The notes under the pieces: model-generated
The model's database searches: none
Seen by the model: only the letters and a program-made list of their open reading frames with translations
What the model was told of the DNA's origin: nothing
Program-made: the position numbers and the translations under genes
Shown: piece by piece, positions 37,221 through 64,000 of the stretch
How the letters are laid out: each line of letters opens with the position of its first letter
How positions within the stretch are numbered: the first letter of the stretch is position 1
Source: Paenibacillus sp. EZ-K15
GTDB taxonomy: Bacteria > Bacillota > Bacilli > Paenibacillales > Paenibacillaceae
DNA length: 64,000 nucleotides
Assembly (NCBI RefSeq): GCF_002573715.1
Contig: NZ_PDHM01000022.1
Span: 112,425-176,424, forward strand
Direction: 5' to 3'

Positions 37221-38006
37221 TCACTTGCTCGGACTATCGAAAATCCCCAAACGATGCAGCACGGTCATGATTCGGTAAAAATCGTAGCTACCCTTAGGAT
37301 CATGCAATACTTCTGCTTGCTGTGCAGCTTGTACTGCCGGTTCTGCCCAAGATGGAACTTTCGCTGGTTTCTCCGTCTCAACTGCCTTGAGCCTTACGTT
37401 CATCTGCTGAGTGGTATTGCTTTGCTCCGTTAGCAGTTTCATCGCAGAAGCATATTGCTTGCTAAGCTGCTGAATCTGCTCTTGTGTTTTTTGCAGCTCG
37501 GCCGTTAATTGTTCGATTTTCATACCTTCCTCCTCCTCTGGACTAGGCACATCATATTGATAGAGCGAGTTCTGCTCCATAATAGAAATTAGCTTTTTCG
37601 GATAATTGGGGTCTGTGGCATAGCCCCCTCTCCAAATCTCGGTCGCAGCCGTTTTATAATCCGCCCACAATACGCCATGGTAACGCTGTGGCTTGTCACG
37701 TGTGCCATTCAGGATCAGCCGGGTATGATCGGCAACCGATTCACTCCAGCTGTTATACTTACGAAACTGAGCTTGGGTCGTGTAGGGCGTCTGCCCCCGG
37801 TATTCGGTTGTCTGCATGGTGACGCTTCCCGCCGGACCGGTTCCTTTGATGCCAAACAGATTGTTCGCTTTTTGCGTTAGACCGCTCATTCCCCAATTGG
37901 ATTCCAGGATTGCCTGAGCGAGCGTAAGCGAAGCAGGCACCCCGTACTGACGCATGTCCTGATTGGCTATAGGTGCGAGCTTGGCTATAAATTCAGAGGG
38001 TTTCAT
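37221..38006 (-). CDS. Phage-type glucosaminidase (endolysin)
   Basis: A 261-residue peptidoglycan hydrolase. Residues 1-155 are a glucosaminidase (LytG/FlgJ type) domain with the catalytic Glu in QAILESNWG and the LFGIKG block; a coiled coil (about 165-215) and a short C-terminal domain that may bind the wall follow. No signal peptide, as expected when a holin releases it. ATG 38006 follows AGGAGGAG and lies inside the end of the holin gene (14-base overlap). It is the last gene of the leftward phage locus and supplies cell lysis for particle release. Confidence 0.88.
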   Translation of the reverse strand: MKPSEFIAKLAPIANQDMRQYGVPASLTLAQAILESNWGMSGLTQKANNLFGIKGTGPAGSVTMQTTEYRGQTPYTTQAQFRKYNSWSESVADHTRLILNGTRDKPQRYHGVLWADYKTAATEIWRGGYATDPNYPKKLISIMEQNSLYQYDVPSPEEEEGMKIEQLTAELQKTQEQIQQLSKQYASAMKLLTEQSNTTQQMNVRLKAVETEKPAKVPSWAEPAVQAAQQAEVLHDPKGSYDFYRIMTVLHRLGIFDSPSK

Positions 38007-38445
38007 CCTTTTTCTCCTCCTTTCGTGCGGTTGGCTTATCTCCTTCTTCGGATTTGATCTGGAATACCTGTACCACATTACGCAGGGACTGGGGGATCGG
38101 TACCCCCATTCTCCCAACGTTCTCAATAATAGACAGCAGCTCATTTGCGAGATAGAAGAAGATCACGGTATTCTGAAAATAATTCATCTCCCCCAGCACC
38201 CGGTCCACCAGATGCATCAGGGCGATGATGAGAAAAATGGTCATTTTGCGTGCAATCCCAGTATAACCAATGCGGCTGCGCAGCTCGCCGTTCATCCAGG
38301 CCGCGCCCCATCCGGTCAACCAATCGATCACCACGAACCACAACAACAGATGCAGCGGCAGCGACCATCCGCCCCAGACGTAACCTGTCACGGCCCCCGT
38401 CCCCGCCACCAGCATCTTAAACAGCTGACCGATGTGCTCATACAT
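37993..38445 (-). CDS. Phage holin (phage_holin_4 / Cph1 type)
   Basis: A 150-residue membrane protein with three predicted membrane segments (about 10-28, 30-50 and 68-100) and the WGGWSLPLHLLLWFVVIDWLTG block typical of this holin group, ending in a Lys/Glu-rich tail. It would make membrane holes to release the glucosaminidase. ATG 38445 follows AAAGGAGG. A terminator lies only 35 bases upstream (38480-38507), so transcription from the tail genes must read through it or start within that short gap. Confidence 0.88.
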   Translation of the reverse strand: MYEHIGQLFKMLVAGTGAVTGYVWGGWSLPLHLLLWFVVIDWLTGWGAAWMNGELRSRIGYTGIARKMTIFLIIALMHLVDRVLGEMNYFQNTVIFFYLANELLSIIENVGRMGVPIPQSLRNVVQVFQIKSEEGDKPTARKEEKKDETL

Positions 38446-38479
38446 AATTGTTCCTCCTTTATATGGTTTTGAAGTTGTG

Positions 38480-38507
38480 AAAAAGCCCTCGGTGGAGCCG
38501 AGGGCTT
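38480..38507 (-). terminator. Terminator just upstream of the holin gene
   Basis: Perfect 10-base arms (38483-38492 and 38498-38507) with a 5-base loop, then five T on the minus strand. It points at the lysis genes from the tail-gene side. Confidence 0.85.
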
Positions 38508-38599
38508 GCGTTACTGCTATTCATAGTTGCTCTAAGAGAGAGAATCCATTGTTAGCATGCACGTCACTTCGCCTGTGGATCATGCTTCCGATCGCTGAT

Positions 38600-38610
38600 A
38601 TGAACGAGAC
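38600..38610 (+). repeat. Inverted repeat at the right (3') end of the IS
   Basis: ATGAACGAGAC, exact inverted copy of 40185-40195; preceded by GAT (38597-38599). Confidence 0.75.
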
Positions 38611-38674
38611 CTGTCAAATAGCAGTTTGTAACTCCCTTGTTTTTCCCAATCCCCCTTTATACAAGAGAGGGTGT

Positions 38675-38961: not shown

Positions 38962-40077
38962 TCACCTATTTATCCTTTTCTCTTCAAGTTCTCGGGCAAT
39001 CGACCAAATAAATCCACTTAGTTCACGCGCCACGGCCACAACTGCTTTGCCACTAGGCTTACCCTTTGACAGCATTTTCGTGTATTTTCGATGTAGTCGA
39101 TGCTGTGCCTTCCAGGATATGGCCTGAATTTCAGGAGATTTTCCTTGTTGACGTTTCTTTAACTCTCCTTGTAGCGCAGGTTTATAGCGGTAACTCCAAG
39201 CGGATTCGACCAATAAACGACGAAGGTGGGTATTCCCCGATTTCGTAATGTTTCCCTGCCATCGGCTTTGGCCACTTGAGTATTCCCTCGGCACCAAACC
39301 TGTGTACCCCATGAAAGCCTTCGCATTACCAAACCGGGTAAATGAACACACTTCCGCTACGATTCCTGTTGCTGTCGTTTCAGCTACTCCACGTAAGGTT
39401 TGAAGGGCTTGTATTAAGGGGGCGTGGTGCCCTTCCGTGGCTTCTTCGTGAATGGCTGCTTCCATACGCTTCAGACGTTCTTCATTTTCATCCATCTGAT
39501 GCAGCATTTCCTGCAGAACCAAGCGTTGAGAAGCGGACTCGAATGGAATACGTCCTAACCATAACCGGTACTTAGCCGTCCAGCGGCGAAGTGGCTCTTT
39601 AGGTGCAATCTGATGACGAAGGAGAAACTTCCCGATCCGCTGCCGGATTCGAGTTCGGTCTTCCTTAACATCTTCACGCATTCGTACCAAATCACGAAGT
39701 GCTTCTTCCTCTGGAGTAGGTACATGCACACGTGTTAATTCACCTGCTCGAAGTAATTGTGCCAGACGCATCGAATCCCTACGATCCGTTTTTACCCGTT
39801 CTCCTGGACGACTAGGCATAAGTGATGGGGCGATAACAATGCAGTCATATCCATGTGCAGTTAGCAAACGAACTAAAGGATATCCTGTTGGACCTGCCTC
39901 GTAACAAACGCTTAATTCATTGGGTTGGCCTAACTTCCTCAATACTTTCAAGATGTGATACTCGGTATGAGGAATCGTGCCCAAATACCGAGCGCCTTCT
40001 CTTCCTGGATCAGCTACAGATACAGCAATATTTTCCTTCGACACGTCTAAGCCTACGTATTTTATGGTATCCTTCAT
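38962..40077 (-). CDS. IS110-family transposase (recombinase)
   Basis: A 371-residue RNA-guided recombinase. The N-terminal RuvC-like DEDD domain shows D11 (GLDVSKE), E in CYEAGPTG, and the paired D residues of KTDRRDSMRLA; the C-terminal Transposase_20 domain has LRGVAETTATGI, FMGYTGLVP and the Ser-bearing GNITKSGN. ATG 40077 is 10 bases after AAGGAG; an upstream in-frame codon is less likely. The gene is full length with no frameshift, so the element may be active. Its ribosome site is part of an inverted repeat with the element end. Confidence 0.93.
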   Translation of the reverse strand: MKDTIKYVGLDVSKENIAVSVADPGREGARYLGTIPHTEYHILKVLRKLGQPNELSVCYEAGPTGYPLVRLLTAHGYDCIVIAPSLMPSRPGERVKTDRRDSMRLAQLLRAGELTRVHVPTPEEEALRDLVRMREDVKEDRTRIRQRIGKFLLRHQIAPKEPLRRWTAKYRLWLGRIPFESASQRLVLQEMLHQMDENEERLKRMEAAIHEEATEGHHAPLIQALQTLRGVAETTATGIVAEVCSFTRFGNAKAFMGYTGLVPREYSSGQSRWQGNITKSGNTHLRRLLVESAWSYRYKPALQGELKKRQQGKSPEIQAISWKAQHRLHRKYTKMLSKGKPSGKAVVAVARELSGFIWSIARELEEKRINR

Positions 40078-40080
40078 AGT

Positions 40081-40186
40081 ACAGACTCTCCTTTGCAATT
40101 TAGCTCTGATTTTGGTTTTGGTTTAGCTTCTACTACACCATTATTCCCAAAATTAACCTAAGATGTTGCAATTACGGGGAGTCTGT
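40081..40186 (-). promoter_or_regulatory. Inverted repeat that can hide the transposase ribosome site
   Basis: ACAGACTCTCC (40081-40091) and GGGGAGTCTGT (40176-40186) are complementary at 10 of 11 positions. On the minus-strand RNA the right-hand copy, next to the IS end, would pair with GGAGAGTCTGT, which contains the transposase Shine-Dalgarno. Confidence 0.5.
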
Positions 40187-40332: not shown

Positions 40333-40470
40333 TTAGTAAGCCTCGCCAGTGATGACTTCATATTCTTCGGGAGTGATCACGCCAAACGCAACATATTGTC
40401 TCAATTGAGGCTTCTGCGCCCACTTCTTTTCATAGTAGTACTTCAAGCGTTCAAAATCGTTCTCGAACAT
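40333..40470 (-). CDS. xkdX: XkdX family phage protein (module A)
   Basis: A 45-residue protein of the XkdX family: a W near the middle and the end pattern YVAFGVITPEEYEVITGEAY are diagnostic. The length is normal. ATG 40470 follows AAAGGAG. In PBSX, xkdX follows xkdW near the end of the tail genes and its function is unknown. Here the IS is inserted downstream, between this gene and the lysis genes. Confidence 0.85.
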   Translation of the reverse strand: MFENDFERLKYYYEKKWAQKPQLRQYVAFGVITPEEYEVITGEAY

Positions 40471-40489
40471 CGTCTTCCGCTCCTTTCGA

Positions 40490-41068
40490 TCAGCTATTTT
40501 CAAGTGATAACAACCGTAATTCAAGCCCTACAATTTGAGCGCCTTGCGCCTCATTTTGCTGGCGCAACTCCATGGCCTCGAGCTCCCGTGCAACCATCTC
40601 AGAACCTAAGCGATCCACTTCATTAGGTTCCTGTGGTTGAGGTCTAGTTAGCTCCTCGATTTCTTCCTGGGTTAAACCTTCGATCCAAAGTGTCGGCATC
40701 TCGGGAGTGACGTACGTCGGCGGCTCCCCCCGCTCGTCCTCAGGCTGTACCTGCCATTCGTCATACGCTTGGCGATAATCTGATTCTGCTGCCTGCAGAT
40801 CGTCCTGGTAGGCCTCCCAAGCCGGGATGTCGAAGCGCGGCATGAACAGTCCAGGCATAACTGGCACGCCGACGATATATCCGGTGATTTCCGGTTCCGG
40901 TTCCGCTTCCTCCTCCGTTTGTCCCTCGGCGTCCCCTTCTTCATCCAGATCGGCGGGCGGCTGCGGCTCGATCTCCTCATAAAAAGGGACGACACCGGAA
41001 ATGGCATCGTCCATGAGCATATCCTCTAAATAGAGGCCGTCTATATTTACTTTAGGTACAGCTTTCAT
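40490..41068 (-). CDS. XkdW-position tail protein (module A)
   Basis: A 192-residue acidic protein. Residues 1-30 look structured, 32-60 are a Glu/Asp/Pro-rich linker, 60-140 repeat Pro/Trp-containing strands (PAWEAYQDDLQ), and the C-terminus is a predicted coiled coil (150-192). No firm family match; the position between the large fibre and xkdX equals xkdW of PBSX, where fibre-associated or chaperone-like proteins are found. ATG 41068 follows AAAGGAGG. Role in fibre assembly is inferred from order. Confidence 0.6.
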   Translation of the reverse strand: MKAVPKVNIDGLYLEDMLMDDAISGVVPFYEEIEPQPPADLDEEGDAEGQTEEEAEPEPEITGYIVGVPVMPGLFMPRFDIPAWEAYQDDLQAAESDYRQAYDEWQVQPEDERGEPPTYVTPEMPTLWIEGLTQEEIEELTRPQPQEPNEVDRLGSEMVARELEAMELRQQNEAQGAQIVGLELRLLSLENS

Positions 41069-41080
41069 GTGATACCTCCT

Positions 41081-43720
41081 TTATTGTTCTGCTTGGAATA
41101 TAATATGGTCTAAACTAAGCCAGTCTAATGGACTTGTTGTATTAACGGTCACATTACCCGTTGGAGTAACTCGGAGGTCCATCATAGTATAAGAAGCAAT
41201 ACCTCCGGACAAACCCGCAAATATAAGGACTTTGTTTGGGCGATATCCTGGGGGAAGGTAAAACATTGTACCAGAAACTGTAACTTTAATTAGTCCACTT
41301 AATTTAACCCAATTTCCAATTTTAGTATAACTTGGCTTACGGAAATTTGTTTCGGTATATTCAGTAGCACCATTAATCAGAGTAGGTTCAACCCATACAA
41401 CAGAGTTATCCTTATCTGCCTTCTTATTCATCAGCACCGATACAGCGGTCGCATTCTGCTGTACGGCGTCGGTCAACTCTTGGAGCATCGCCTTTTCGTT
41501 AGCTGCGTACGAGCCGGTGAACGGAACGTTAGGCGTCTTATCCAGCATCAGGTATGTTACGGAATAGGCTGCGGATGGATCGTAATCTGCATTGGCTGTG
41601 TAAGCGTGATAGTTGCCGTTTGAGGCACTTAGAGTGAACTCAAACCTCCATACGCTGTCTTTTAGGCCGTTTTTATAAACAGTCAAAAACTGTCCGACTT
41701 TATTTCTTAGGGCGGTGCCAGAGAATATCGAATCAGTCCTGTTAAACTGAGTCACGGTCGCTCCGGTAACCGAATTCGCCCGTTCACGCAGCACAATCCC
41801 TGTTCCAACCTCGATCTGATTATCTACCTCGTTAAACGTCAACGTACCTTCAGAAACGATAGGCTCGATAGTTTCTTTAGCTAGACGGTACAAGAGTTGG
41901 TAAGGCGTCCAATTAGGAGCTTGAGTTGTTGGAAGTTTATCTGTCCAGCCTAACCACGATCTAGTCACACCGTCCGCCCGATAAGCCCACGCTTTTACCC
42001 CTGTTCCGTTGTAAAAGTTATTAACCGGATTATCAGGCGTTGCGTTACTCCCTGATCCGTCGTACATCGTCCAACCCATAAAATACGCCTTAATCTCGTC
42101 GGCTGTCGGCGAATAGTTGTCGCCCCAGCCGCTGTCTGTATTGGCTATTGAAATATAACAACGCTTTGCGTTTCCTGAATCAATTGCACTAATATCGGGG
42201 TTATTGGTAATCTGATCCGATTGGAGTTTTTTGCCGTCATATTTTACGACTGTTTCAGAATACGGTCCAGATGTGTTACTAAGTAAATCAAAGAAAGTCT
42301 GTTTCCATCCGGTTCCCTTCCCACCAATACCAACATAGTTAAATTTGTCGGTTAGTGTAGCTTTCCCCCACTTCGCGAACCTGAAATACTGTCCGTCTTT
42401 TTCGAACACCTCGTCAGCATTCGCACCTGTCACCGGATCGGAGTATAAGTCCGTTTGCAGCGCAAGTATACAGTCTTCACGTGGTTTATGTGTTTTGACC
42501 GTAGCTCCGAGATTAAGCGTAATATCTTCAATAACATAGTCACCAACAGCTGCATCTTGAGGTGCTACAATACGAACCTCCATAGTTTTGATGTTTGCCG
42601 GAGTAGCAAATATATCTGTTCCAGTGCCTGTTCCATTGACGGAGGTTCCAGGTGTGTCTAATACATACAACCCAGCTTCATCGTAACCCAGTACATCAAC
42701 GTACACTCCATCGTATTTTTCTAGGCCATTTAGAGTGATTTTCGCACGGAGTGCATAGTTAGTATTAGGTATAGCAGGTATAAGTTTAGACCGGTATTCC
42801 ACAACCGTTGAACCTGTCGCTTTTACTATAGCCGAATATTCAGATAGCACTTTCGTTGAACTTTCAACCGTGCCTTCAAATAGTGTAGGAGCCAGATTCT
42901 CTCCGTACCGGATCACATACGGATTTCGTACAGGTTGAATACTATCGACGTATGGATATTTAATATCCATTTGTTCTGCGGAATACGATGTAATATTGTT
43001 ATACTCTGATTGTGAAATTTCATATAAACTTACGTTTTTAACATCAAAGTTGACGGCAGCATATACCCCACCCGCGTAACAAACTCCAACTATAATATCA
43101 AAAGCGGTGTCAGCCGATTTTGTAAACCCATAATAAATTCTTTGCCAAATCCCCAGTTTAGTCTTATCAACAGCATCTGCCCCAATTCCAACATTTGCGC
43201 CTAATTTAACTAACCCGCTATCAGAAATGCTGTTTATTTTCACTTCTGCCGATATTACGTAATATTTCCCAGCAAGAGCAAGAAAAGCTGAGCCCCCTAC
43301 TTGTCTATATATGATGTACCCCTCGTCTGTATTTGTAACAGCTACATTTATAATCTCAGTATTATTACCGGTGGTGTCCGACCCAACACTTAAGGTAGTT
43401 GTCGCAGGGTTTGATGGGCTTCGATTAGTCCATCGTCCAGCCAAATTCACCAACGTCCGCCCTTTAATCCCACTCAACTTAAAAGGCGCGCTCCGCTCTG
43501 CGTTCACAATCTGAAGCCCCGGCTGCAGCACGACTTCCCTGCGCTCCTCCGTGTCCAGACGCTTTTCCAATGCGCCGATGGCCTCGCTGGTTTCACCTGC
43601 GAACCGATCTACAGCATCTGCGTTTTGGTCGATATATTTCTCCAGATCGAAATACGTCGTGGACGGTGAGGTTCGATCAATTTTGTTCAACCCGATATTC
43701 GGCGTAACCGGATTCGTCAT
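41081..43720 (-). CDS. Large tail fibre / receptor-binding protein (module A, XkdV position)
   Basis: An 879-residue fibre. The first 90 residues (NPVTPNIGLNKIDR..., then a coiled coil) resemble the baseplate-attachment part of PBSX-type fibres; the rest is strand-rich with several sandwich-like modules and no recognised enzyme. It should bind the target cell wall. The middle and C-terminal part is clearly richer in A+T than the first 250 bases and the baseplate genes, a sign of exchange of the specificity region. The gene starts directly at the xkdU stop and ends 12 bases before the next gene. Confidence 0.75.
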   Translation of the reverse strand: MTNPVTPNIGLNKIDRTSPSTTYFDLEKYIDQNADAVDRFAGETSEAIGALEKRLDTEERREVVLQPGLQIVNAERSAPFKLSGIKGRTLVNLAGRWTNRSPSNPATTTLSVGSDTTGNNTEIINVAVTNTDEGYIIYRQVGGSAFLALAGKYYVISAEVKINSISDSGLVKLGANVGIGADAVDKTKLGIWQRIYYGFTKSADTAFDIIVGVCYAGGVYAAVNFDVKNVSLYEISQSEYNNITSYSAEQMDIKYPYVDSIQPVRNPYVIRYGENLAPTLFEGTVESSTKVLSEYSAIVKATGSTVVEYRSKLIPAIPNTNYALRAKITLNGLEKYDGVYVDVLGYDEAGLYVLDTPGTSVNGTGTGTDIFATPANIKTMEVRIVAPQDAAVGDYVIEDITLNLGATVKTHKPREDCILALQTDLYSDPVTGANADEVFEKDGQYFRFAKWGKATLTDKFNYVGIGGKGTGWKQTFFDLLSNTSGPYSETVVKYDGKKLQSDQITNNPDISAIDSGNAKRCYISIANTDSGWGDNYSPTADEIKAYFMGWTMYDGSGSNATPDNPVNNFYNGTGVKAWAYRADGVTRSWLGWTDKLPTTQAPNWTPYQLLYRLAKETIEPIVSEGTLTFNEVDNQIEVGTGIVLRERANSVTGATVTQFNRTDSIFSGTALRNKVGQFLTVYKNGLKDSVWRFEFTLSASNGNYHAYTANADYDPSAAYSVTYLMLDKTPNVPFTGSYAANEKAMLQELTDAVQQNATAVSVLMNKKADKDNSVVWVEPTLINGATEYTETNFRKPSYTKIGNWVKLSGLIKVTVSGTMFYLPPGYRPNKVLIFAGLSGGIASYTMMDLRVTPTGNVTVNTTSPLDWLSLDHIIFQAEQ

Positions 43721-44266
43721 TTAGGCTCCTCCTCCCAACAATCTGTCTTGTGTCGTTGCTGATATTTCCTCAAAGGTCATGCCCTCCACTTCAGCTATGG
43801 TGAGATAACGCAGTGCGTACTCGACCGAAATATGCGCTGGTTTGATCTCCTCAATGGCTGATTTCAAATCACTTAAATTCGGCGGGATGCCCAGCGTATC
43901 TCTAAAATGAATCGTCACTTTATACTCCGCTGGCTGGACGGAGACCTCGATGCTGCCCCGCTCATAGGCTTGCGCCACATTTTTGAGCATGCTGGCAGAC
44001 ACCTTGCCGCTCCCCCGCATTTTCGAAATGATGACCGAACGACGTTGCTCGATCGGCTTGGCGAGGTTCACCGAAATGTTCAAGTCCTGCTCGAACCGGG
44101 ACAGCGCCCAAGTAGCGGTTTCGGGATAATACTGGTCCAACTGATCCTCCAGTTCCTGCGCCAGCTTGTCCAACTCAGCCCCTTCGGCTCCGGCAATGGC
44201 TTTCATTTCTCGAACATCGTGATAAAAGGACGGCAGATAACCCAGCCAGGCTTCGGCTTTACTCAT
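43721..44266 (-). CDS. xkdU: XkdU-like baseplate protein, YmfQ/DUF2313 (module A)
   Basis: A 181-residue baseplate protein of the YmfQ family. The QRRSVIISKMRGSG, DTLGIPPNL and EEIKPAHISVEY blocks are characteristic. It acts next to baseplate J in building the baseplate wedge. It overlaps the end of xkdT by 4 bases (coupled translation) and abuts the fibre gene. The paralogue in module B (55682-56263) shares the same blocks but differs along most of its length. Confidence 0.88.
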   Translation of the reverse strand: MSKAEAWLGYLPSFYHDVREMKAIAGAEGAELDKLAQELEDQLDQYYPETATWALSRFEQDLNISVNLAKPIEQRRSVIISKMRGSGKVSASMLKNVAQAYERGSIEVSVQPAEYKVTIHFRDTLGIPPNLSDLKSAIEEIKPAHISVEYALRYLTIAEVEGMTFEEISATTQDRLLGGGA

Positions 44267-45321
44267 CGGACTGTCACCATCCCCAGGACAGCTACCGCTT
44301 CCGGTTCGATCGGAAGGCTGTCCGTACCTCCGTTCACGGTCAATACCTCGTAGTCGATGACTGCCGGAATATCCAAGATCACATTGGCGATCCGGTTATA
44401 CCGGACCAACGGGTCGGACATAGCCAGGTCTTTCAGATACTGGCGAACGCCCCGCTCAATGGCTTCCTGCACGCCATCCATGCCGGCTCCATCGAGCAAC
44501 GTAACCTGTACATCAATATTGACAGGCACTTCAACCGCCCCAACAACGGTGACAACCGAACCGACGGGAGCTGCGCCTTCCCCCATGCCATCCATGGTCG
44601 GATCGATATACAGCTGCACCGATTCCACAACGGAAGGCGTTGGCGATCGCATCTCATTATCCAGCAGCACCACCTTAACGGTGCCCGGACCATTCCATAA
44701 CGGAAAAGCCTTGGCCTTGCCAACCCCGGCTTTCTCCCTCGCCCACAGTTCATACTGATTCCGGTTTGCACTAGTCACGGGACGGGAGATTTTTTCGCGG
44801 TATCGGTCATACAACGCTTCATCCGACTCGGTATCTTCGCCAGGTACCCAGAGCTCCATCAGCTCCGCCTTCACCAAGCCTTCGACGTATTCCAGCGGAA
44901 GCAGCGAGCCGAATCGGCGGTTGCCTTCCTTCCCGCTTGTCTCGCATTCTAGCACATATTGCCCTGCATCCAGACGGGTGATGACTTTGTAATTCAGCGG
45001 ATCCAATGAAAAACGACTCCCTAGAGGCACATCCACCGCGGCACCGTTATTACCTGAAAAGTGTCCCAGAAGCTGTGCTTTTGTAGCCTGCTTCCGGGTC
45101 AGACCCGACCAGGCAATGCTCCGATCCAAAAATTCGCCCGAGGCCGTAGCGGCAAATTTCAGGTTCATGGAGTACCCCAATTCTACGTACATCTGCGCAA
45201 GCTCAGCAGCAGAAGGTGCCAACGCATCGTAGATGATGCTGCCTTCCCTTTTATCCATACCATCCGGAATTCGATCCATCATCCGCTCCAGAATTGCTTC
45301 GTACGTCTGTTCCTCAACCAT
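44263..45321 (-). CDS. xkdT: Baseplate J/gp47 family protein, XkdT (module A)
   Basis: A 352-residue baseplate wedge protein (Baseplate_J family). The N-terminal SIIYDALAPSAAELAQMYVEL, the central GTVKVVLLD and the C-terminal DPLVRYNRIANVILDIPAVIDY blocks are typical. It forms the ring that carries the fibres and triggers sheath contraction. It overlaps xkdS by 8 bases and xkdU by 4. Compared with its module B paralogue it is about 30 residues shorter. Confidence 0.9.
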   Translation of the reverse strand: MVEEQTYEAILERMMDRIPDGMDKREGSIIYDALAPSAAELAQMYVELGYSMNLKFAATASGEFLDRSIAWSGLTRKQATKAQLLGHFSGNNGAAVDVPLGSRFSLDPLNYKVITRLDAGQYVLECETSGKEGNRRFGSLLPLEYVEGLVKAELMELWVPGEDTESDEALYDRYREKISRPVTSANRNQYELWAREKAGVGKAKAFPLWNGPGTVKVVLLDNEMRSPTPSVVESVQLYIDPTMDGMGEGAAPVGSVVTVVGAVEVPVNIDVQVTLLDGAGMDGVQEAIERGVRQYLKDLAMSDPLVRYNRIANVILDIPAVIDYEVLTVNGGTDSLPIEPEAVAVLGMVTVR

Positions 45322-45727: not shown

Positions 45728-46020
45728 GATGGCTTCACCAACCGATCCAGCACGAGATACGTTTGCCCGCCCTGGTAACGAATGAGCAGCACCGTATCAC
45801 CAATCTCCAGCCCTTTTCGAATTACATACTCGGCGCCGCTAATATTCAACTTGTACTCGGTCATTGATTCTCCGATAACTAAAAAATCCTCCGTCAGGCT
45901 GAAACGCTGATCCACGTTCACCTCGAGAGGATGTGTTGATGTGACTGTGCCATACAGCACCGCCATCGGGTTTGTGCTTCCCACGGCGCTGAGACTGGCT
46001 TTTTTGATAATATCCAGCAT
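45724..46020 (-). CDS. xkdR: XkdR-like protein, DUF2577 (module A)
   Basis: A 98-residue protein of the DUF2577 family, a small OB-like domain found between XkdQ and XkdS in PBSX-type baseplates (probably spike or hub associated). ATG 46020 is preferred to the GTG just before it. It lies 6 bases after xkdQ and overlaps xkdS by 4 bases. Confidence 0.82.
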   Translation of the reverse strand: MLDIIKKASLSAVGSTNPMAVLYGTVTSTHPLEVNVDQRFSLTEDFLVIGESMTEYKLNISGAEYVIRKGLEIGDTVLLIRYQGGQTYLVLDRLVKPS

Positions 46021-56263: not shown

Positions 56264-57410
56264 TTACGCTCACCGTCCCCAGCACCGCTACCTGACCGGA
56301 GCCAATTTCGATATTTTGCTGCTCGGTGTGGCCGTTAATCGTCAAATCCGAGTAGTCGACGATAATTGGAATATCCAGCAATACGGCGGCAATTCGCGTA
56401 TACCTTACCAAAGGATCCTTCCGGTTAAAAGCGATCTGCTGTAAATACGTGCGAACGCCGTCTTCGATCAGCTTCCGGATTTCTTCCATTGTCGAAGGCT
56501 GCTCCTGCGTGCGCTGCACTTTGACGGAGATATCAATCGCCACTTCCGCCGCAGGCATCACCGTGATCACCGGACCGGCCGGGGCAACGCCTTCGCCTTG
56601 TCCATCCCGGGACGGGTCAATGTACTGCTGAACGGCATCCACGATATCCTGGCTTGCCGCACGCTTGTCCGTATCTATGAGATACAGCCCGACGGTACCG
56701 GGTCCTTTCCACAATGGCGCTACTTCGACGCCGCCAACACCCGCGATCTCATTGGCCCACTGCATGTACTGCGCTTTGTTGCCGCTCGTTCCCTGACTCC
56801 GGACTTTGGCGTAAAAACGCTCCAGGAGCGACTGGTCGCTTTCGGTATCCGTCCCGCTCCGCGTGGGCTCCGGGTTCGTAACCGATGTTACGCCGCTGAC
56901 TGACGTCATCATGAGCTGAATGACACCTGCGGGAACATTGCCATTACTGCCCGGCGTGACGGCTCGGATCGGCGCCGTGCCGGTACCCAAGTCACTCAGC
57001 GTCACGCCTGATGTGGTCACATACTCCACGGAGGATTCCCCGGAGCCCTCATCGGCTGGTGTAGCGACATAGGTTCCGGCAGGCACGGTCGTCCCTGGCT
57101 TCCCCGTAAACAGAACGCTGCCGGACGAAGCGACCGCTTCCCGCCTAGTAATCCCATGCTCTGCCGTCCTCAGATCGAGTTCGGCAGAACGGATATCCGG
57201 ATGATCGCTTGCCACGGTACTCGCAAAGCCTCGACGCAGCAGCTCCTGAGCCCACAAAGCTGCCTCAGACAGCATAAACGCGACCGGCGCCTGCGCATCC
57301 CAAATAAAAGAGCCCTCCGACTTGTCGATGTCCGAAGGCACTTTGTTCAGCATGCGGTTCATAATGTTCTCTTCCGTCTGATCCAACAAATACAACGGCA
57401 AATCTGCCAT
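56256..57410 (-). CDS. xkdT: Baseplate J/gp47 family protein, XkdT (module B)
   Basis: A 384-residue baseplate wedge protein. It has the full-length Baseplate_J plan: SFIWDAQAPVAFMLSEAAL, GKPGTTVPAGTYV, GSNGNVPAG and the C-terminal DPLVRYTRIAAVLLDIPIIVDY. Its ATG overlaps the TGA of xkdS by one base. It is closer to classical gp47 proteins than the shorter module A copy. Confidence 0.9.
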   Translation of the reverse strand: MADLPLYLLDQTEENIMNRMLNKVPSDIDKSEGSFIWDAQAPVAFMLSEAALWAQELLRRGFASTVASDHPDIRSAELDLRTAEHGITRREAVASSGSVLFTGKPGTTVPAGTYVATPADEGSGESSVEYVTTSGVTLSDLGTGTAPIRAVTPGSNGNVPAGVIQLMMTSVSGVTSVTNPEPTRSGTDTESDQSLLERFYAKVRSQGTSGNKAQYMQWANEIAGVGGVEVAPLWKGPGTVGLYLIDTDKRAASQDIVDAVQQYIDPSRDGQGEGVAPAGPVITVMPAAEVAIDISVKVQRTQEQPSTMEEIRKLIEDGVRTYLQQIAFNRKDPLVRYTRIAAVLLDIPIIVDYSDLTINGHTEQQNIEIGSGQVAVLGTVSVSE

Positions 57411-57871
57411 CAGATCACCACGCTTTCTATAATTTCCGTCTCATCCCGAACACTCGTGATTCGGCAGCTGAAACGGCAAGCTTCTCCTTCCCAGGCAAAA
57501 AGGAACTGATCCACGCTCTCCGTCCGCGCATCCGCCAGCAGCGTCTCGGTCACCATGCGCTGAATCTCGCTTTCTTGCAGAGATCGGTCATATCCTTTGC
57601 CGACCAGCTCCTCCAGCTCGCTTCCGTAATCGCGCGTATAGATCAAATGACGGTAACGCGGCGTACGAATCGCTTTTTCACACCAAATGACCCAGGCTTC
57701 CTTCTCGTCCGCTACCGGAATCTTCCGGGTCGGGGACATTACAAACTCGCCGGCTTCAAAATCATACCTCCAGCTCCGTCCAAAAACAGCCCCGTCTCCT
57801 TCCAGCACCTCTGGATCGGTCGCATCCGTCCAGATCATATCATCGCCTTCAGGGAATAAATTAGCCACCAC
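57410..57871 (-). CDS. xkdS: XkdS-like protein, DUF2634 (module B)
   Basis: A 153-residue DUF2634 protein with RYRHLIYTRDYGSELEELVG, matching the block in the module A copy. It overlaps xkdR by 11 bases and xkdT by one, so the run is translationally coupled. It would link sheath and baseplate. Confidence 0.85.
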   Translation of the reverse strand: MVANLFPEGDDMIWTDATDPEVLEGDGAVFGRSWRYDFEAGEFVMSPTRKIPVADEKEAWVIWCEKAIRTPRYRHLIYTRDYGSELEELVGKGYDRSLQESEIQRMVTETLLADARTESVDQFLFAWEGEACRFSCRITSVRDETEIIESVVI

Positions 57872-58250
57872 TGCTCACCACCTTGCATAGGACCACCACG
57901 TCGTTACCGCTGTTGACCCGAACGGCGAGCACGCGGTCTCCCGGTTTCAGGCCTTTTCCCAATACAAAAAGGGTATCTTCAACTTCGTTCTCTTCGGCAT
58001 CAAACGTCATATCTTGCTGCTGGCCCCCCCAAGTCACGGTGCCCTTTGCCGTATAACGGGGAAAGGACAGCATTCCCGGCAGCTCCGCTACCATATAGTC
58101 CTGCAGCTCATGCTTGAAATCATCCAGCTTGAGTCCCGTAGAAGTTATCGTGCCGAGCACGGCCCCTACGCCGCCCATGGCTTGACGGGTTTGCTTATTC
58201 ATTGAGGCATATAAGGAGGACGCCAATTGTCCATAGGGGTCTTTATTCAA
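57861..58250 (-). CDS. xkdR: XkdR-like protein, DUF2577 (module B)
   Basis: A 129-residue DUF2577 protein, 31 residues longer than the module A copy, with an N-terminal helical part (QLASSLYASMNKQTRQAM) before the shared barrel (GLKPGDRVLAVRVNSGNDVVVL). Overlaps xkdQ by 8 bases and xkdS by 11. Confidence 0.82.
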   Translation of the reverse strand: MNKDPYGQLASSLYASMNKQTRQAMGGVGAVLGTITSTGLKLDDFKHELQDYMVAELPGMLSFPRYTAKGTVTWGGQQQDMTFDAEENEVEDTLFVLGKGLKPGDRVLAVRVNSGNDVVVLCKVVSSGG

Positions 58251-59220
58251 GGTAAAACCTCCTTTTTACATCGTCATAACTCCCCAGCTCCAGCATCATG
58301 CTTCCGGGACTGCCCAGCTCCCGGCTGACGGAAATTACGAGCAGTTTCATCGAGCCCAGCATGACCGCATCTCCGGCGCGGATCGTATTGACATCAGGTG
58401 CATTCAGGGAGATGGTCTCCCGAATCCCCCTCAGTTTGCTCCGGGCCAGCTGGCGGGCAGCCGCAGGCGACTTCACTTCATCGTCCTGAATAATAGCCTG
58501 GAGTTGGCCGTATTTTGCGATATCCTTCTCCTCGATGGCCATCACCTTGGAAGGAACCTCTTTTCCGGTCTCGCTTGCGGCTGTCGCCAGCACTTTGACC
58601 TTGGTCGCCGCGCCCTCCAACGTCCGCGATTGCGTAGTATCCGTGATGGCCTCCAGGATGTAGACCTCTTTGTTCGTTCCTAACTCGTACAGCTCAAGCC
58701 CTGAAGAGATCATCCGCGGATGATACAGCTTGCCGCCGGCTTTGGCCGTCTCCCGCAGATCAGCGAACATGCTCGCATAGATCGATTGTGTCCGGTAAAC
58801 GGAACGCCCCAACTGCTTCTCGGTATCCGGCAGTACCGCAATTTTCAGGTTCCAGTCCGCCGCGTACTTTTTGAATCGCTGGGTAGCGGTCTGCTTCGCC
58901 GGAAACAGATATTCATCCTCCGATTTGTCCAAATATACCGTCCGATCGTACAGCGTGAGGGTCATCCGCTTCACCCCATTATTCGAGGTTTCTACTTCCC
59001 ACACGACAGCCGGGTGCAGCAGGGGGACATAATCCTTCTTACCGTAAGGAATTCCGCTGATTCGGATCGCCATTCCCGGCGAGATCGGCGGCATATCCGG
59101 CGTTACGACCAAATTGACAGTTCCCTGATAAGCAACTTGTTCGAGTGAGTCCCGTAGATTGATCGCTTCCACCAAGGATGATACATCATATTGATCTTGC
59201 AAAATCACCTTATAACTCAT
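58243..59220 (-). CDS. xkdQ: XkdQ-like hub protein (module B)
   Basis: A 325-residue hub protein of the XkdQ/YqbQ family. Family-type blocks include GTVNLVVTPDMPPISPGMAIRI, the LYDRTVYLDKSEDEY turn and the C-terminal IRAGDAVMLGSMKLLVISVSR. It overlaps xkdP by 4 bases and xkdR by 8. Expected at the tail tip. Confidence 0.87.
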   Translation of the reverse strand: MSYKVILQDQYDVSSLVEAINLRDSLEQVAYQGTVNLVVTPDMPPISPGMAIRISGIPYGKKDYVPLLHPAVVWEVETSNNGVKRMTLTLYDRTVYLDKSEDEYLFPAKQTATQRFKKYAADWNLKIAVLPDTEKQLGRSVYRTQSIYASMFADLRETAKAGGKLYHPRMISSGLELYELGTNKEVYILEAITDTTQSRTLEGAATKVKVLATAASETGKEVPSKVMAIEEKDIAKYGQLQAIIQDDEVKSPAAARQLARSKLRGIRETISLNAPDVNTIRAGDAVMLGSMKLLVISVSRELGSPGSMMLELGSYDDVKRRFYLE

Positions 59221-59861
59221 GACAGCACCAGCTTCTGCCCAGGCTTGATGGCATTCGGATCTTTACCGATCATCTTCTGATTCAGCTTGTAGATCTGGTT
59301 CCATTTCGAGCTGTCCCCGAGCTCCAGCTTGGCGATTTTGGAAAGTGAGTCCCCCGGCTTCATAATGTAGGTTTTGTTCTTTTCCTTCATGTCGGCCCGG
59401 GGCTTTTTATTCGTACCGGCAGCCCCGCTACTGCCTGCCGTTTTGGCCACCTTCATTTCACTCCATGTCCGGAGCGTAATGTCAAAATACACATCCCCGA
59501 CCTCCCCGCCACGGAACGTGGACTGATGGGAAGCGACATACACCGGCACATTCACCGCCGTCTTGGTAATGACGAATTGCAACGGTGTTTTATACATCAA
59601 AAACTCGTTAAGTTTATTCATCGCGGTTTGCGGTTTAATATGATCTTCCTCTTCACCTTTGCAAAAAGCTGCATCATACTCTTGTGGGAAAAATGAAGAG
59701 AACGATATCTCTTTAATCCGATTGCCTTGAGGAAAATCAAACTCCCCGTAGTTGAGAATCGTAGCCGTTTCCAGGCCTTTTTGGCGTGAAATGCTCACCT
59801 CTTCGGGATTAACCGGGAATAGGAACGTCATGCCTTTTCCATTCTTCAACATAAACTCCAC
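59217..59861 (-). CDS. xkdP: XkdP-like LysM tail protein (module B)
   Basis: A 214-residue protein with the N-terminal FLFPVNPEEVSISRQKG block and a C-terminal LysM motif (YIMKPGDSLSKIAKLELG). The GTG at 59861 is 8 bases after AAAGGAGG and gives the usual family start; a longer in-frame form from 59906 would begin before that ribosome site. It follows the tape measure by about 65 bases. Confidence 0.85.
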   Translation of the reverse strand: MEFMLKNGKGMTFLFPVNPEEVSISRQKGLETATILNYGEFDFPQGNRIKEISFSSFFPQEYDAAFCKGEEEDHIKPQTAMNKLNEFLMYKTPLQFVITKTAVNVPVYVASHQSTFRGGEVGDVYFDITLRTWSEMKVAKTAGSSGAAGTNKKPRADMKEKNKTYIMKPGDSLSKIAKLELGDSSKWNQIYKLNQKMIGKDPNAIKPGQKLVLS

Positions 59862-59927
59862 CTTGGCCCCCTCCTTTCTGTATGGATGCCTTCGGACCGA
59901 CTCCATGTCTGCTGTTAACCATCATCT

Positions 59928-61682
59928 TCAATAGGCCATTGGAGTCGGCTTCCGGTTCTGCGCCGCTTTACTGAATTCGGCTCTCAGCCGTTGTCCGATC
60001 TGAAGGATCAATCCTTCCACATCGATCGGGTGTTCCTCATGCACCGTAACCTGCACCGCGCCTGGAGGTAGATTGTAATTCACACTCGTCTCCGCTTTGA
60101 AGTCCGTCAGCAAGCCGGATATCGTGCTCATCTGCTCCGGACTGATCTGAACGAGCTGAGGCGACATCATTTTCCCGGAAACCGCTTGATTTTGAGCTGC
60201 ACTCGCAGGTGGACCAAAAGATCCACTACTTGAAGAGTGACTAAGCGGCACGTATGAGCCGTATGTCGAAATCGATGATCGATCAGGTAACAGCGGTGTA
60301 CTGACATTAGTGGGCGCAGCATTTGGAATTATCGGTCCTTGAACAGCGACTGCCGTTGAATTAGAAGGTGGTGCCTTCGGCGTTTCCTTCGGTTGAGCAG
60401 CTTCCTTGTCTTTTTTCCCGAAGGAAAACGCGTTGGAAAACCACTTGGATACCTGCTCCTTACCTTCTTTGAACTTCTCACCAATACCGGTAAAGGCGCC
60501 GCCCACTTTCTCACCAATATAGCTTCCTACGGTGCCGCCGAGCGTTGAGCCGATCATCGTACCTGCAACCGGGATAACGGATCCGATGATCCCTCCGATC
60601 GTGCTTCCTATACCTCCACCAACGGCAGAGCCTATGGCCTGATTACGTTCTTTTCCGGATTCGGCAGAGGCGATTGCGGTCGCATCGGCTATATATCCCA
60701 ATGGGCCGAGTGCACGTTTACCAAGACCCTTCATCAAGCCGGAGCCTAGACCCTTTTTGCCTGCATTTTTTATTGCACTTGCTCCAGGGCTGCCGTCAGC
60801 TGCCTGTTTTATTGAATCTGACCCTGCAGCGGTCTTGGCAGCGCTTGCCGCACCTCCGGAAACGATGCCGCTGCCTCCGCCGCCTCCAAACATTCCTTTC
60901 GTCATACCCACGGCATCCTTGAGTAATGTCACAGCTCCCTTTCCTGTGTTGCCTGCAGTTTCTATGAAATCTCCCAGTGTTTCAGCTTTGTTAAAACGCT
61001 TACCCCATTTGGTTAGTGGCTTATCCCCTTGGCTATTCGGGGTCGGGGCAGCCTGGCTTTGATTGGAATTGGATCCACGGCCGCCCCCCCTTCTAACCCC
61101 ATTGGGCCTAGGTGCCGTCCTAGGGGCTGGTGTAGGAGCTGGTGTATCTTTACTCCATGCTTCGCGCATCTTTTTTCCTTTACCATATAGTTGGCCACCA
61201 TTTTTCATAGTGGAACCCACGGTGATAACACCGCCTAAAATGCCTAGAGCCGTATCCCATCCAGACTTTTTACCGCTACCCCCGCCTCCAAGCTGAAGCG
61301 ATCCAAGCTCCGCCGTAAGATTATCCACCGCAATCGTATTCGCGCTCAGCGCATCAATCAACGGAGAAAAATCAAACCCTGATGCCTTCAAATCCACTAG
61401 AACACTCGTATCAACCTGCTTCTGCACGTTCAGCTTTACATTTGCCGAGGCTTGGATGACTTGTGACTTCACCCGCTGCATTTTGGCCAGCAGGCTGTCC
61501 AGCCCCTTCGAGGCGCTGTCCTTCAGCACGATTTCAGGCGCCATGCGGGTACGCCCGATTCGCATGACGCGTCCCTGAATCCGCTCAAAATAACGCTCCA
61601 TCGCCCGCAGCTCGCGGTTGGCCTTGATCACGTTTTTCGGATCAATGACCAGATTCATGCGGTAGTTCATGGCTTCAGCCAT
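59928..61682 (-). CDS. Tape measure protein (module B)
   Basis: A 584-residue tape measure. A helical N-terminal part (1-125) is followed by a Pro/Ser/Asn-rich linker, then a Gly-rich hydrophobic region (about 325-410: repeated IGG and GSTIGG) typical of tape measures, and a conserved C-terminal end with VTVHEEHPIDVEGLI. It is close in length to the module A tape measure (625) but unrelated in most of its sequence. ATG 61682 follows AGGGGGTG. It lies directly after the T frame of the chaperone. Confidence 0.82.
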   Translation of the reverse strand: MAEAMNYRMNLVIDPKNVIKANRELRAMERYFERIQGRVMRIGRTRMAPEIVLKDSASKGLDSLLAKMQRVKSQVIQASANVKLNVQKQVDTSVLVDLKASGFDFSPLIDALSANTIAVDNLTAELGSLQLGGGGSGKKSGWDTALGILGGVITVGSTMKNGGQLYGKGKKMREAWSKDTPAPTPAPRTAPRPNGVRRGGGRGSNSNQSQAAPTPNSQGDKPLTKWGKRFNKAETLGDFIETAGNTGKGAVTLLKDAVGMTKGMFGGGGGSGIVSGGAASAAKTAAGSDSIKQAADGSPGASAIKNAGKKGLGSGLMKGLGKRALGPLGYIADATAIASAESGKERNQAIGSAVGGGIGSTIGGIIGSVIPVAGTMIGSTLGGTVGSYIGEKVGGAFTGIGEKFKEGKEQVSKWFSNAFSFGKKDKEAAQPKETPKAPPSNSTAVAVQGPIIPNAAPTNVSTPLLPDRSSISTYGSYVPLSHSSSSGSFGPPASAAQNQAVSGKMMSPQLVQISPEQMSTISGLLTDFKAETSVNYNLPPGAVQVTVHEEHPIDVEGLILQIGQRLRAEFSKAAQNRKPTPMAY

Positions 61683-61699: not shown

Positions 61700-61861
61700 T
61701 CACTTCAAACTCTGACCGGCCATGCCCTCGATCTCCGACTGGGAGAAAGCGAGCAGCAGCAGGCGCTCGCCTCGCGGGAGCCGCCAAAAATCTCCGGGAC
61801 GAAGGTGATGCCGGACCCACAGATGATACAGCATCGTCGTCATTCCCCCGGAGCCAATCAG
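61700..61861 (-). CDS. Tail chaperone T extension, made by -1 frameshift (module B)
   Basis: A 53-codon frame entered only by -1 shift from the G gene; it reads LIGSGGMTTMLYHLWVRHH... and ends AGQSLK. The GT fusion would have 197 residues (61700-62292), the same total length as the module A fusion. It stops 18 bases before the tape measure start. Confidence 0.78.
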   Translation of the reverse strand: MIGSGGMTTMLYHLWVRHHLRPGDFWRLPRGERLLLLAFSQSEIEGMAGQSLK

Positions 61862-62292
61862 TTTTTTAGGTCAGCAATCTCGACCCCAAAGCCGGACAGC
61901 TCCAGCACTTTATCGCCTACGGCATCCAGCTCTCCGGCCAGCAGCATGCGGCGAACCGCCTGCTCTCCGCCCGACAGCTTCAAGCGGCTTGTAATCCGCG
62001 GATCGCCCCAGCCGCTAAGCGTCAAACCCTTCACCGACAGACTGCTCGTGGCCTCGGAAATCAGCAATGCATTAAACGTTTCCGTATCCACCTTCTCATC
62101 CACTGCACCCTTTACCGTACGGCGAACGGTACAGCGCTCGCGGATGCTGTCCACCTTGCTCGAAGTCAAACCCTGGAGCACCATTTTCATATCTAAGCGC
62201 TTAATGCGAACCGTTTCTTCCGGCAGCTTCTCGGCTGCCTCAAACAGACTGTCCAAAATTTGCTCTTCGCTCATGTTCTCGTGCAAGCTCAT
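61858..62292 (-). CDS. Tail assembly chaperone G, XkdN-like (module B)
   Basis: A 144-residue XkdN-family chaperone with AVRRMLLAGELDAVGDKVLELSGF near the end, the same pattern as in module A. The frame ends CTA AAA AAC TGA with the slippery heptamer at 61861-61867. ATG 62292 is 8 bases after AAAGGAG; an in-frame ATG seven codons upstream overlaps that site. Confidence 0.85.
   Translation of the reverse strand: MSLHENMSEEQILDSLFEAAEKLPEETVRIKRLDMKMVLQGLTSSKVDSIRERCTVRRTVKGAVDEKVDTETFNALLISEATSSLSVKGLTLSGWGDPRITSRLKLSGGEQAVRRMLLAGELDAVGDKVLELSGFGVEIADLKN
61861..61867 (-). promoter_or_regulatory. Programmed -1 frameshift site A_AAA_AAC (module B)
   Basis: The heptamer is in the correct zero frame (CTA AAA AAC TGA), directly before the stop; the -1 frame continues for 53 codons. 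It is the same heptamer as in module A. Confidence 0.82.
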
Positions 62293-62341
62293 GCGTATAT
62301 CTCCTTTGCTCATTAAATAATAGATTCCATTTCCTATTGCA

Positions 62342-62358
62342 GCGGGCGATGCTCGCCC
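62342..62358. promoter_or_regulatory. GC-rich hairpin between tube and chaperone genes (module B)
   Basis: GGGCGA and TCGCCC pair around a 3-base loop in the 137-base gap after the tube gene. No T-run follows. It may stabilise the abundant tube mRNA or lower chaperone expression. Confidence 0.3.
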
Positions 62359-62429
62359 GTATGAGGTACACCATCCCGGGCGAACCCCCGCTATTTGACG
62401 TACTCAAGCAGCGCTTAAGCAGAAACCTC

Positions 62430-62837
62430 TTAATCCCCCTGAATCGGATCCAATAGCTCGTACCCCTCAAAGGTAAATGAAGTTTCCTCCTGTACTTCTT
62501 CACCCGCTGTCCAGTTAGCTAGCTGGATTTTGTCCGGCATGCAGCGGATCAGACGAACGCGCTCATGGCCGTAGGATTCGGGATCATCCAGCTTGGAGAT
62601 GATATCGAATTTAGTGAAGCCGCGGGCGATCATATCGGAAGTGACCTTGTAACCGCTCATCGTACCGGTTCCTTTTTTGCTGCCGTTTTTGTGCACCGTC
62701 CAGTCGTTGCCGACCAGCTTCAGCTCGCGCTTCTCCAATTCCACGCTGGCTTCCAGCTTGTTGATGTGCGTCTGCCAAACCCCGTCAATATACGCCTGGC
62801 CGTATGTCCCCATAATGACTCTTGAAGCATCCAACAT
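62430..62837 (-). CDS. xkdM: Tail tube protein, XkdM-like (module B)
   Basis: A 135-residue tail tube protein of the DUF2001/XkdM family (GTYGQAYIDGVWQTHINKLEA, GTGTMSGYKVTSDMI, SFTFEGYELL). ATG 62837 follows GAGGAGG. It lies 60 bases after the sheath gene. The shared plan with module A but low identity suggests an old divergence and not a recent copy. Confidence 0.88.
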   Translation of the reverse strand: MLDASRVIMGTYGQAYIDGVWQTHINKLEASVELEKRELKLVGNDWTVHKNGSKKGTGTMSGYKVTSDMIARGFTKFDIISKLDDPESYGHERVRLIRCMPDKIQLANWTAGEEVQEETSFTFEGYELLDPIQGD

Positions 62838-62897
62838 ATTTAGTTCCTCCTCGATTTCTTTAAGTTTTTATAAGAAAAATGTTGATCGGCGTTCTAA

Positions 62898-64000
62898 TTA
62901 TTGCACGTAAAATGTACCGAACAGCTGCTCCATCACATCGGTTAACTTCACATTCCACTGCAAGAAGACCTGATCCGGCTCCGGCGTGTTCACGGCGGAA
63001 TCGCCATAGTATGCCGGATCGAGAATGACGTCGTAGCCGTCCGGCTCGATGACATTGCTCAGTGACAACGAAGCGAGGTATTCCTTCACGGCGCCGATTA
63101 ACGCTAATCGACCTTCCTCCGTGTTGTTCACCTTGCCGATGTAGGTCTGTTCCGCGGCCAACTGCAAGTCCCCATGGATCGCATCCATCACGCGGATGGA
63201 ACGGATTTTTTTCCAGGCATTGTTTTGGCCTTCAGCCGGATTCACCAACGTGTTGATGCCGCGCAGCGCCTTCACCTGACGTCCGTCATAGAAGAGTACG
63301 AACACGCCATTTCGTACGGCCTGCTCCTGCTCGGATCGGGTCCAGCGACGGGTCACATCTTCGAATGGCGTTACCGCATATGTAGCGGATTGGTTCAAGC
63401 GTTGACCCGCAATAAGCCCGGTCACATAAGCAGCCGTCTGGGCAGAACTGTAGTTCACGCCGGACAGACGCACGCCCGTCCCCACATTAATAATCCCTTC
63501 ATGGTTCAACGCAAGCGAACGGGCCGCAGCCAGTTTCGCTGCATCCTTGGAGGTATCGTCCGCAGCGCTGCCGCCGAATACGGCCATCACGCCGCGTCCT
63601 TCTTGACGAAGACGCTTCACCCAGGCCGCAAAGCTCTGCAGCAGAGCCATATCTGCAGCATAATCCAGGGCAAGTACGTTGAATTCCTGGCCTTCGACCG
63701 CATCCTGCATCTCGATATAATCTGCATTCGTCAGGCCGCCGTTGCCGCTTTTGCCTCCGGACAGCACAGCTCCGTTCACATCAGCAGGAACGCCGGCCGC
63801 CTCCAGTGCGGTAGCCGTTACCCAGAGGTTCTCATCGTCTTCATTGATCTGTGCCGCAATCGACGCTGCTGTCCCGTCCAGGCTTGTATAAGTGCCAAGC
63901 AGCTTGGCACCTTCATAGAGGCGAAGCTCGCGTGCTGCCGGGTCGATCAGCGACGGCTGCACGGTTACGGAGAAGCCGTTGCCACGACTGCCGGGATATT
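62898..64000 (-). CDS. xkdK: Tail sheath protein, XkdK-like (module B, 5' end cut by window)
   Basis: The C-terminal 367 residues of a contractile sheath subunit. The frame stays open to the right edge, reading YPGSRGNGFSVTV before the GTG at 63962, and the GARGN-type block is a conserved internal part of sheath proteins, so the true start lies beyond the window. The C-terminal half has NNAWKKIRSIRVMDAIHGDL and TYIGKVNNTEEGR, as in the module A sheath (SYIGKVDNNVDGR). Confidence 0.88.
   Translation of the reverse strand, partial: YPGSRGNGFSVTVQPSLIDPAARELRLYEGAKLLGTYTSLDGTAASIAAQINEDDENLWVTATALEAAGVPADVNGAVLSGGKSGNGGLTNADYIEMQDAVEGQEFNVLALDYAADMALLQSFAAWVKRLRQEGRGVMAVFGGSAADDTSKDAAKLAAARSLALNHEGIINVGTGVRLSGVNYSSAQTAAYVTGLIAGQRLNQSATYAVTPFEDVTRRWTRSEQEQAVRNGVFVLFYDGRQVKALRGINTLVNPAEGQNNAWKKIRSIRVMDAIHGDLQLAAEQTYIGKVNNTEEGRLALIGAVKEYLASLSLSNVIEPDGYDVILDPAYYGDSAVNTPEPDQVFLQWNVKLTDVMEQLFGTFYVQ

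Follow-up and report, generated by a model that had tools for sequence, protein, structure and literature searches.

A Paenibacillus locus with two divergent contractile-tail modules and one lysis cassette is probably a headless double tailocin operon

The locus described here lies on the minus strand of a 64,000-nucleotide stretch of the genome of Paenibacillus sp. EZ-K15 (contig NZ_PDHM01000022.1, positions 112425–176424, hereafter called the window), and continues into the sequence to the right of the window (L003). It contains two modules of contractile-tail genes, in the minus-strand order regulator, module B, module A, lysis pair. We consider it probable, from the sequences, that it is a domesticated, headless two-tailocin operon, in which two particles would be made from one late transcript and set free by one lysis; the single transcript, the induction, the two particles and the killing are what we infer from the gene content. 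The initial annotation of the window had proposed two complete contractile-tail modules before a single holin/glucosaminidase pair, and Pfam and PHROG searches agreed, giving a full set of genes in each module.

Module A occupies positions 40333–52636, and module B runs from 52954 to the end of the window and then beyond it, so that a complete contractile tail (sheath, tube, chaperone, tape measure, baseplate and fibre) is present twice; all of the features of the locus within the window are on the minus strand. In each set, Pfam identified the sheath (A, 439 amino acids, 50709–52028, PF04984 and PF17482; B, 488 amino acids, 62898–64000 and past the window end, the whole gene lying at L003:3323–4789), the tube (DUF2001, PF09393; A, 50249–50707; B, 62430–62837), the XkdN tail assembly chaperone (PF08890; A, 49797–50219; B, 61858–62313), the LysM protein XkdP (PF01476; A, 47005–47757; B, 59217–59906), the YQBQ-type hub XkdQ (PF24032; A, 46027–46992, 4.3e-122; B, 58243–59220), the sheath initiator XkdS (PF10934; A, 45314–45727; B, 57410–57871), the Baseplate_J protein XkdT (PF04865; A, 44263–45321; B, 56256–57410) and the Mu Gp48 baseplate protein XkdU (PF10076; A, 43721–44266; B, 55682–56263). 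XkdR of module A (45724–46023) matched PF10844 (DUF2577), and that of module B (57861–58250) was assigned from its position, its match being to phrog_2403 (1.1e-28), a family without assigned function. The tape measure of module A (625 amino acids, 47726–49603) matched phrog_1068 (1.5e-90); that of module B (584 amino acids, 59928–61682) was assigned mainly from position and length, with a weak tape-measure match (4.9e-5). Module A begins with a tail terminator gene (52199–52636; PF20765, 2.8e-9) and ends with XkdX (40333–40524; PF09693, 6e-15). The holin (37993–38445; PF05105, 2.8e-40) and the glucosaminidase endolysin (37221–38006; PF01832, 1.5e-40) of the shared lysis cassette each occur as a single Pfam-identified copy.

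The fibre genes are distinct in the two modules, as had been noted from the window. Module A has an 879-residue tail fibre (41081–43720; phrog_13022, and phrog_6613, a tail protein, 1.8e-22) and a fibre-associated protein of 192 residues (40490–41068; phrog_22769, 4.8e-88, a family without assigned function). The corresponding region of module B holds a putative fibre of 334 residues (54674–55678), named for its position after XkdU and a weak PHROG tail fibre match (0.0078), a kelch-repeat gene of 325 residues (53678–54655; Kelch_1, 6.2e-20), and genes of 149 (53217–53666) and 83 residues (52954–53205); homologues of these four in genome G012 are 69, 67, 74 and 62% identical, respectively, the kelch-repeat and 83-residue genes being at the same place there.

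Judged by their sequences, A and B are old, separate lineages. Their proteins are 34% identical for the sheath, 37% for the tube, 29.5% for the chaperone, 27% for XkdP and 23% for XkdQ, and, on the baseplate side, 28, 30, 41 and 49% for XkdR, XkdS, XkdT and XkdU, the last being the highest value; the tape measures are 25% identical, compared with 22% for shuffled sequence. The single match between the modules at the DNA level is 249 bp long at 69%, and falls, by position, within XkdU. The sheaths of A and B fall into two deep clades on long branches in a tree of 85 sheaths, and the nearest solved sequences also differ, being 3hxl for sheath A (3.8e-143) and the phage gp55 entry 31eu for sheath B (9.7e-66). 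The motifs LGIPPNL and YIGKV, reported in the initial annotation as kept in both copies, were seen by eye in A and B alike. An assembly repeat or a recent tandem duplication, which that annotation had also discounted, is ruled out because the identity is only 23–49%, and by the two-clade sheath tree.

Beyond the right end of the window the B sheath gene is completed, and there follow a 72-residue gene (L003:4792–5010), a gene for a 279-residue protein (L003:5012–5851), a leader, an ArpU-family regulator gene (L003:6321–6797; TIGR01637, 9e-23, over the cut-off), XRE (L003:6992–7516) and ImmA-like (L003:7587–8012) genes, both divergent on the plus strand, and a gene for an AviRa-type methyltransferase, beyond which the reading frames resemble cellular genes by eye. 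The 279-residue protein belongs to a PHROG without assigned function; its homologue from P. lautus was modelled from ten sequences, with a predicted local distance difference test score (pLDDT) of 74, and the modelled structure matched the phiCD508 neck protein 9gb5_H (E 5.2e-20) and also the collar of diffocin and tail terminators of the lambda type. On account of these matches, module B very probably has a tail terminator of its own, as module A does.

No capsid, portal or terminase gene was found from ArpU through the lysin by Pfam, PHROG and NCBIfam scans and by reading of the right flank, the rest of the genome not being searched; the lack of head genes noted in the window thus extends over the sequence that follows it. 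Because no head genes were found and only about 470 bp separate ArpU from the first structural gene, the locus is a headless tailocin locus and not PBSX proper. As in an R-type tailocin, it occupies a stable place in the chromosome and includes a regulator and a lysis cassette of its own, and no AAA+ ATPase of the kind found in extracellular contractile injection systems (Afp, PVC) was above the Pfam cut-off among the locus genes scanned.

The same places in relatives gave a similar result, with no head gene among the scanned reading frames between ArpU and the tail genes, a subset of the gap genes and genomes: ten frames by Pfam (seven from G213, one from G187 and two from G028) and ten by PHROGs (six from G213, one from G187, two from G028 and one from G215), loci of genus g3 not being included. 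The gap frames with a Pfam match were a response regulator, FMN reductase, glyoxalases, DUF4127 and a histidine kinase in g5, a second genus of the family, and a TetR regulator and an alpha/beta hydrolase in G028. Cellular genes thus occupy the ArpU–tail gap, the place of the head genes in a prophage, at L052:4768–6804 (G028) and L094:136–2771 (G213). A DUF4127 gene precedes module B in the second genus (L094:4997–6847, the Pfam match being for this copy), and frames of like length and place are found at L108:3441–5291, L104:5366–7216 and L096:4794–6614. In G192 and G250, the leader motif described below lies 2.5–2.6 kb ahead of the B terminator gene, as if the tailocin operon had taken up a gene of about this length.

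Paired modules recur within the family. Defining a pair as two sheath genes on the same strand within 20 kb, we found pairs in 13 of 100 genomes of the window's genus (g1; the sample includes a second genome of the window's species) and in 28 of 75 genomes of g5, compared with about 0.16 and 0.23 pairs, respectively, expected from rough random placement, so that such pairing is far beyond chance. Among further genera, tube-family pairs, read by eye from complete lists, were present in three of 40 genomes of g3, and in none of 37 of g2 or 16 of g17. Of 299 Bacilli sampled evenly, 67 carried the tube and eight carried pairs, every one of these from this family, and no pair was seen in the 42 tube-bearing genomes outside it (both by eye). 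Carriers of pairs include P. lautus, P. solani, P. lactis, P. glucanolyticus, P. campinasensis and Paenibacillus sp. DMB20, and B-type sheaths (E 1e-40) are found in 170 of 394 genomes of the family.

A search of other genomes for the same gene order, as the initial annotation had suggested, showed the order B, A, holin, lysin in 11 of the 13 tandem loci of g1; G062 has the order A–B, and the second module of G007 is only distantly related (44% for the sheath). In these B–A loci the sheath, tube, chaperone, XkdQ and XkdT are 79–100% identical to those of the window, and the ArpU/XRE/ImmA trio was found upstream in ten of the 11, the stretch examined in G096 not containing it. The same AviRa-type gene adjoins nine of the 13 tandem loci. 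The seven pairs examined of the 28 in g5 were all B–A, with sheaths 69–71% (B) and 58–61% (A) identical to those of the window, and the three pairs of g3 had the order A–B. Each of the 44 pairs consists of one B-type and one non-B module (E 1e-40), by position in 42 and from per-genome rows in G232 and G249, where the B sheath is short or in pieces; as the pairs share ancestry, the independent number is about four. The non-B member was A-like wherever examined.

A single tandem ancestor common to g1 and g5 was rejected by the approximately unbiased (AU) test, which gave p 0.008 against the A modules of the two genera as one clade; the group tested was named after the first tree had been seen, and G007 was left out as a long branch. 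Since the A sheaths of g1 and g5 do not form one clade, the sequences indicate that pairing arose at least twice independently, and G007 and g3, the latter in no tree, look like further independent pairings. Single modules also occur: solo-B loci have the same regulators in ten of the 13 examined in g1, and the A-type loci G046 and G085 have similar regulators directly ahead of a weak A-terminator match. At the AviRa site of G063, what is left of the B terminator gene, 23% of its length, is followed by module A alone, which looks like a natural loss of module B.

In the leader between ArpU and the first B gene, a motif (L003, about 6060–6084) and a terminator-like hairpin (L003, about 5993–6022) are conserved. 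Allowing up to four substitutions, we found one copy of the motif in the genome of the window, ahead of B, and further copies ahead of ten solo-B modules with regulators, the solo A of G063 and the first module of G062. Every match was on the coding strand, ahead of the first gene of a module or of the cellular genes upstream of it; several distant solo loci gave no match, and those of G046 and G085 were at the limit and without the hairpin. A hairpin of –10 kcal/mol or below, followed by a T-run, accompanied the leader in 28 of 33 cases, compared with 0.24% of single-base shuffles and 1.5% of random windows.

A second hairpin of this kind (38480–38507, –18.4 kcal/mol, then a T-run) lies just upstream of the holin gene, where we propose that it may act as a gate for lysis. 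Across the 11 B–A loci of g1, that of the window included, hairpins at or below –10 kcal/mol were present at the operon start in 11 and directly before the holin in nine, and a terminator-like hairpin was present at the B/A junction in none; the threshold is reached by 8.2% of random 300-nucleotide windows, and the loci are related, so that the counts are not independent. The two exceptions before the holin are G028, with a hairpin lacking four Ts, and G096, with a hairpin only 218 bases upstream, and in G010 a change in the stem is compensated (by eye). In g5, two of 12 loci had such a hairpin within 220 bases of the holin, about 110 bases upstream, and the second, pre-holin terminator is thus a feature of g1. 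A sigma-70 scan gave four promoter-like sites at the B/A junction against 8.1 expected, and five against 3.4 at the regulator end. Late regulators of the Ltr type sit directly before their promoter, with one transcript for structural and lysis genes (PMC13123087, where ArpU is not named). For the present locus we infer one transcript on which both terminators would be read through after activation; that ArpU is the antiterminator is our conjecture.

The sequence of events would then be as follows. Induction would begin with removal of the XRE repressor through the ImmA-like protease, as in other XRE/ImmA elements, and the ArpU-type late activator would turn on a single late promoter in the conserved leader beside its gene. 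RNA polymerase would pass the leader terminator into module B and then module A, and finally pass the second terminator to transcribe the holin and endolysin genes. A separate contractile particle would be built from each module, with the terminator and fibre of that module and a length set by its tape measure, and both particles would be freed by the one lysis, to kill different kin. A more specific proposal, which we put forward tentatively and with considerable doubt, is that the repeated pairing of a B with a non-B module is a recurrent, selected design and that, in g1, the double operon of approximately 28 kb is under processive antitermination, with one gate at its start and a second that delays lysis until both particles are built.

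The integrity of the genes was assessed by the ratio of nonsynonymous to synonymous substitution rates (dN/dS) between the genes of the window and those of five genomes. The values for the sheath, tube, chaperone, XkdQ and XkdT of both modules were 0–0.10, those for the A tape measure 0.08–0.15 and those for the A fibre genes 0.21–0.36, the comparison not including the B fibre genes. Most core genes of both modules are therefore under strong purifying selection, and the reading frames in both are open, with lengths as in relatives. The tape measure of A is longer than that of B in 19 of the 20 tandem loci measured, the doubtful B gene of G062 included, G070 being the exception; B tape measures are 557–612 residues long in G031, G213, G229, G181, G187 and G180. 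The fibre starts of A are unlike those of B in most tandem loci (by eye).

Several observations count against a working two-particle operon as we have drawn it. Higher dN/dS values were obtained for the terminators (A, 0.13–0.43; B, 0.14–0.24), the B tape measure (0.18–0.30) and B XkdU (0.18–0.25). In this strain alone, an IS110-family transposase gene (38962–40098, by Pfam) separates XkdX from the holin, being unmatched in the other ten B–A loci, and this insertion may lower or otherwise change the expression of the lysis genes and so weaken lysis. A homologue of the holin is found between the two modules of G187, and single lysis is not an established feature of g5. One shared leader is not universal, because G062 and G007 have a second copy ahead of the second module, and the motif was not found, at up to four substitutions, in eight of 13 g5 loci. 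Module B is also damaged in some relatives: xkdP is frameshifted in G066, the B sheath is in pieces or short in G249 and G232, and the B tape measure and XkdU of G062 are doubtful, which may be real or an error of a draft with 10% contamination. This damage, together with the solo-B and solo-A loci, which show that one module suffices, would be expected if only one module worked and the other were a decaying relic kept by chance alongside it. We think that unlikely for the present locus, where the reading frames of the core genes are open in A and B alike and the main structural genes of both have low dN/dS, and in a family where the pair is kept at the frequencies given above.

The other product suggested in the initial annotation, one mixed particle with A and B parts in a single tail, such as a B tail with A fibres, would fit with XkdU being the most similar pair and with an evolutionary exchange of fibre starts between module types. 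By eye, A-type fibre starts stand behind the B baseplates of the solo-B loci G203 and P. terrae, and the A and B fibre starts of G096 look alike, and for these reasons fibres may be exchanged between A and B particles, a further point against two wholly separate products. A mixed tail is nevertheless quite improbable, because the terminator, tube, tape measure, hub, baseplate and fibre are all present separately in A and in B, either module occurs alone elsewhere, and the tubes and sheaths differ at about two-thirds of positions; two machines under one lysis remains the best reading. It is highly improbable that the locus belongs to a prophage, ordinary or defective, and that these tails make use of head genes encoded at another place in the genome. 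The tail proteins are phage-like, and NCBIfam labels the ArpU family a phage packaging/lysis regulator, but no head gene was found in the locus or its right flank, to which the search was confined, and the site is conserved between species.

Diffocin of Clostridioides difficile is likewise a headless contractile bacteriocin of a Gram-positive organism, and the B sheath and terminator matched phage gp55 entries (31eu, 9gb1–9gb8) and the neck of phiCD508; both diffocin and phiCD508 are single-module systems. The R-/F-pyocin cluster of Pseudomonas aeruginosa has two tail modules with common regulation and lysis, one contractile and one flexible, whereas both tails are contractile here. PBSX of Bacillus subtilis has the XkdK–XkdU gene families (by Pfam name), in an order like that of the present modules, and carries packaging genes. 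The description of the locus as PBSX in tandem does not hold, since PBSX is a single module with a capsid, of which XkdG is the main protein (PMC9406221), and none was found at the present locus.

The closest parallels are in Pseudomonas, where P. chlororaphis and P. protegens CHA0 (R-tailocins #1 and #2) have two divergent contractile tailocins of separate origin in a cluster with one lysis set (PMC12090994, PMC7815802). In CHA0 the difference in tape-measure length is held to explain particle length (PMC7815802). Those clusters differ in belonging to a Gram-negative genus, in their mutS–cinA/recA site and in their regulator PrtR (PMC7815802); the present modules are of the XkdK type and from a Gram-positive, with ArpU/XRE/ImmA genes and a terminator in the leader. 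Some clostridia have two tailocin genomes per chromosome, not said to be in tandem (PMC10538166), and no tandem pair from a Gram-positive was found in the titles and abstract openings listed by literature searches on tailocins and on Paenibacillus. The view that a tandem form is unusual therefore stands for Gram-positives, within that literature, and not for Pseudomonas, where the kind is already known.

Solo and paired loci occur naturally in large numbers in Paenibacillus, several of them at one site, so that the idea of interference, by which two tailocins must be divergent to coexist in one cell, becomes directly testable in a Gram-positive. The terminators conserved ahead of the operon and ahead of the holin provide a handle on how tailocin synthesis might be timed relative to lysis in Gram-positives.

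Rfam gave no match in the window at the gathering threshold. Next to the lysis end, on the opposite strand, is a gene (31973–36928) for a multidomain protein of 1651 residues (esterase, CBM96, F5/8 and beta-helix), which apparently has no relation to the tailocin. In eight genomes (G037, G043, G041, G064, G073, G009, G092 and G095), a gene for an A-type sheath of 444 residues lies 3–5 kb from the start of a contig, which suggests that a repeated sequence, perhaps a ribosomal RNA operon, adjoins the solo locus containing this sheath.

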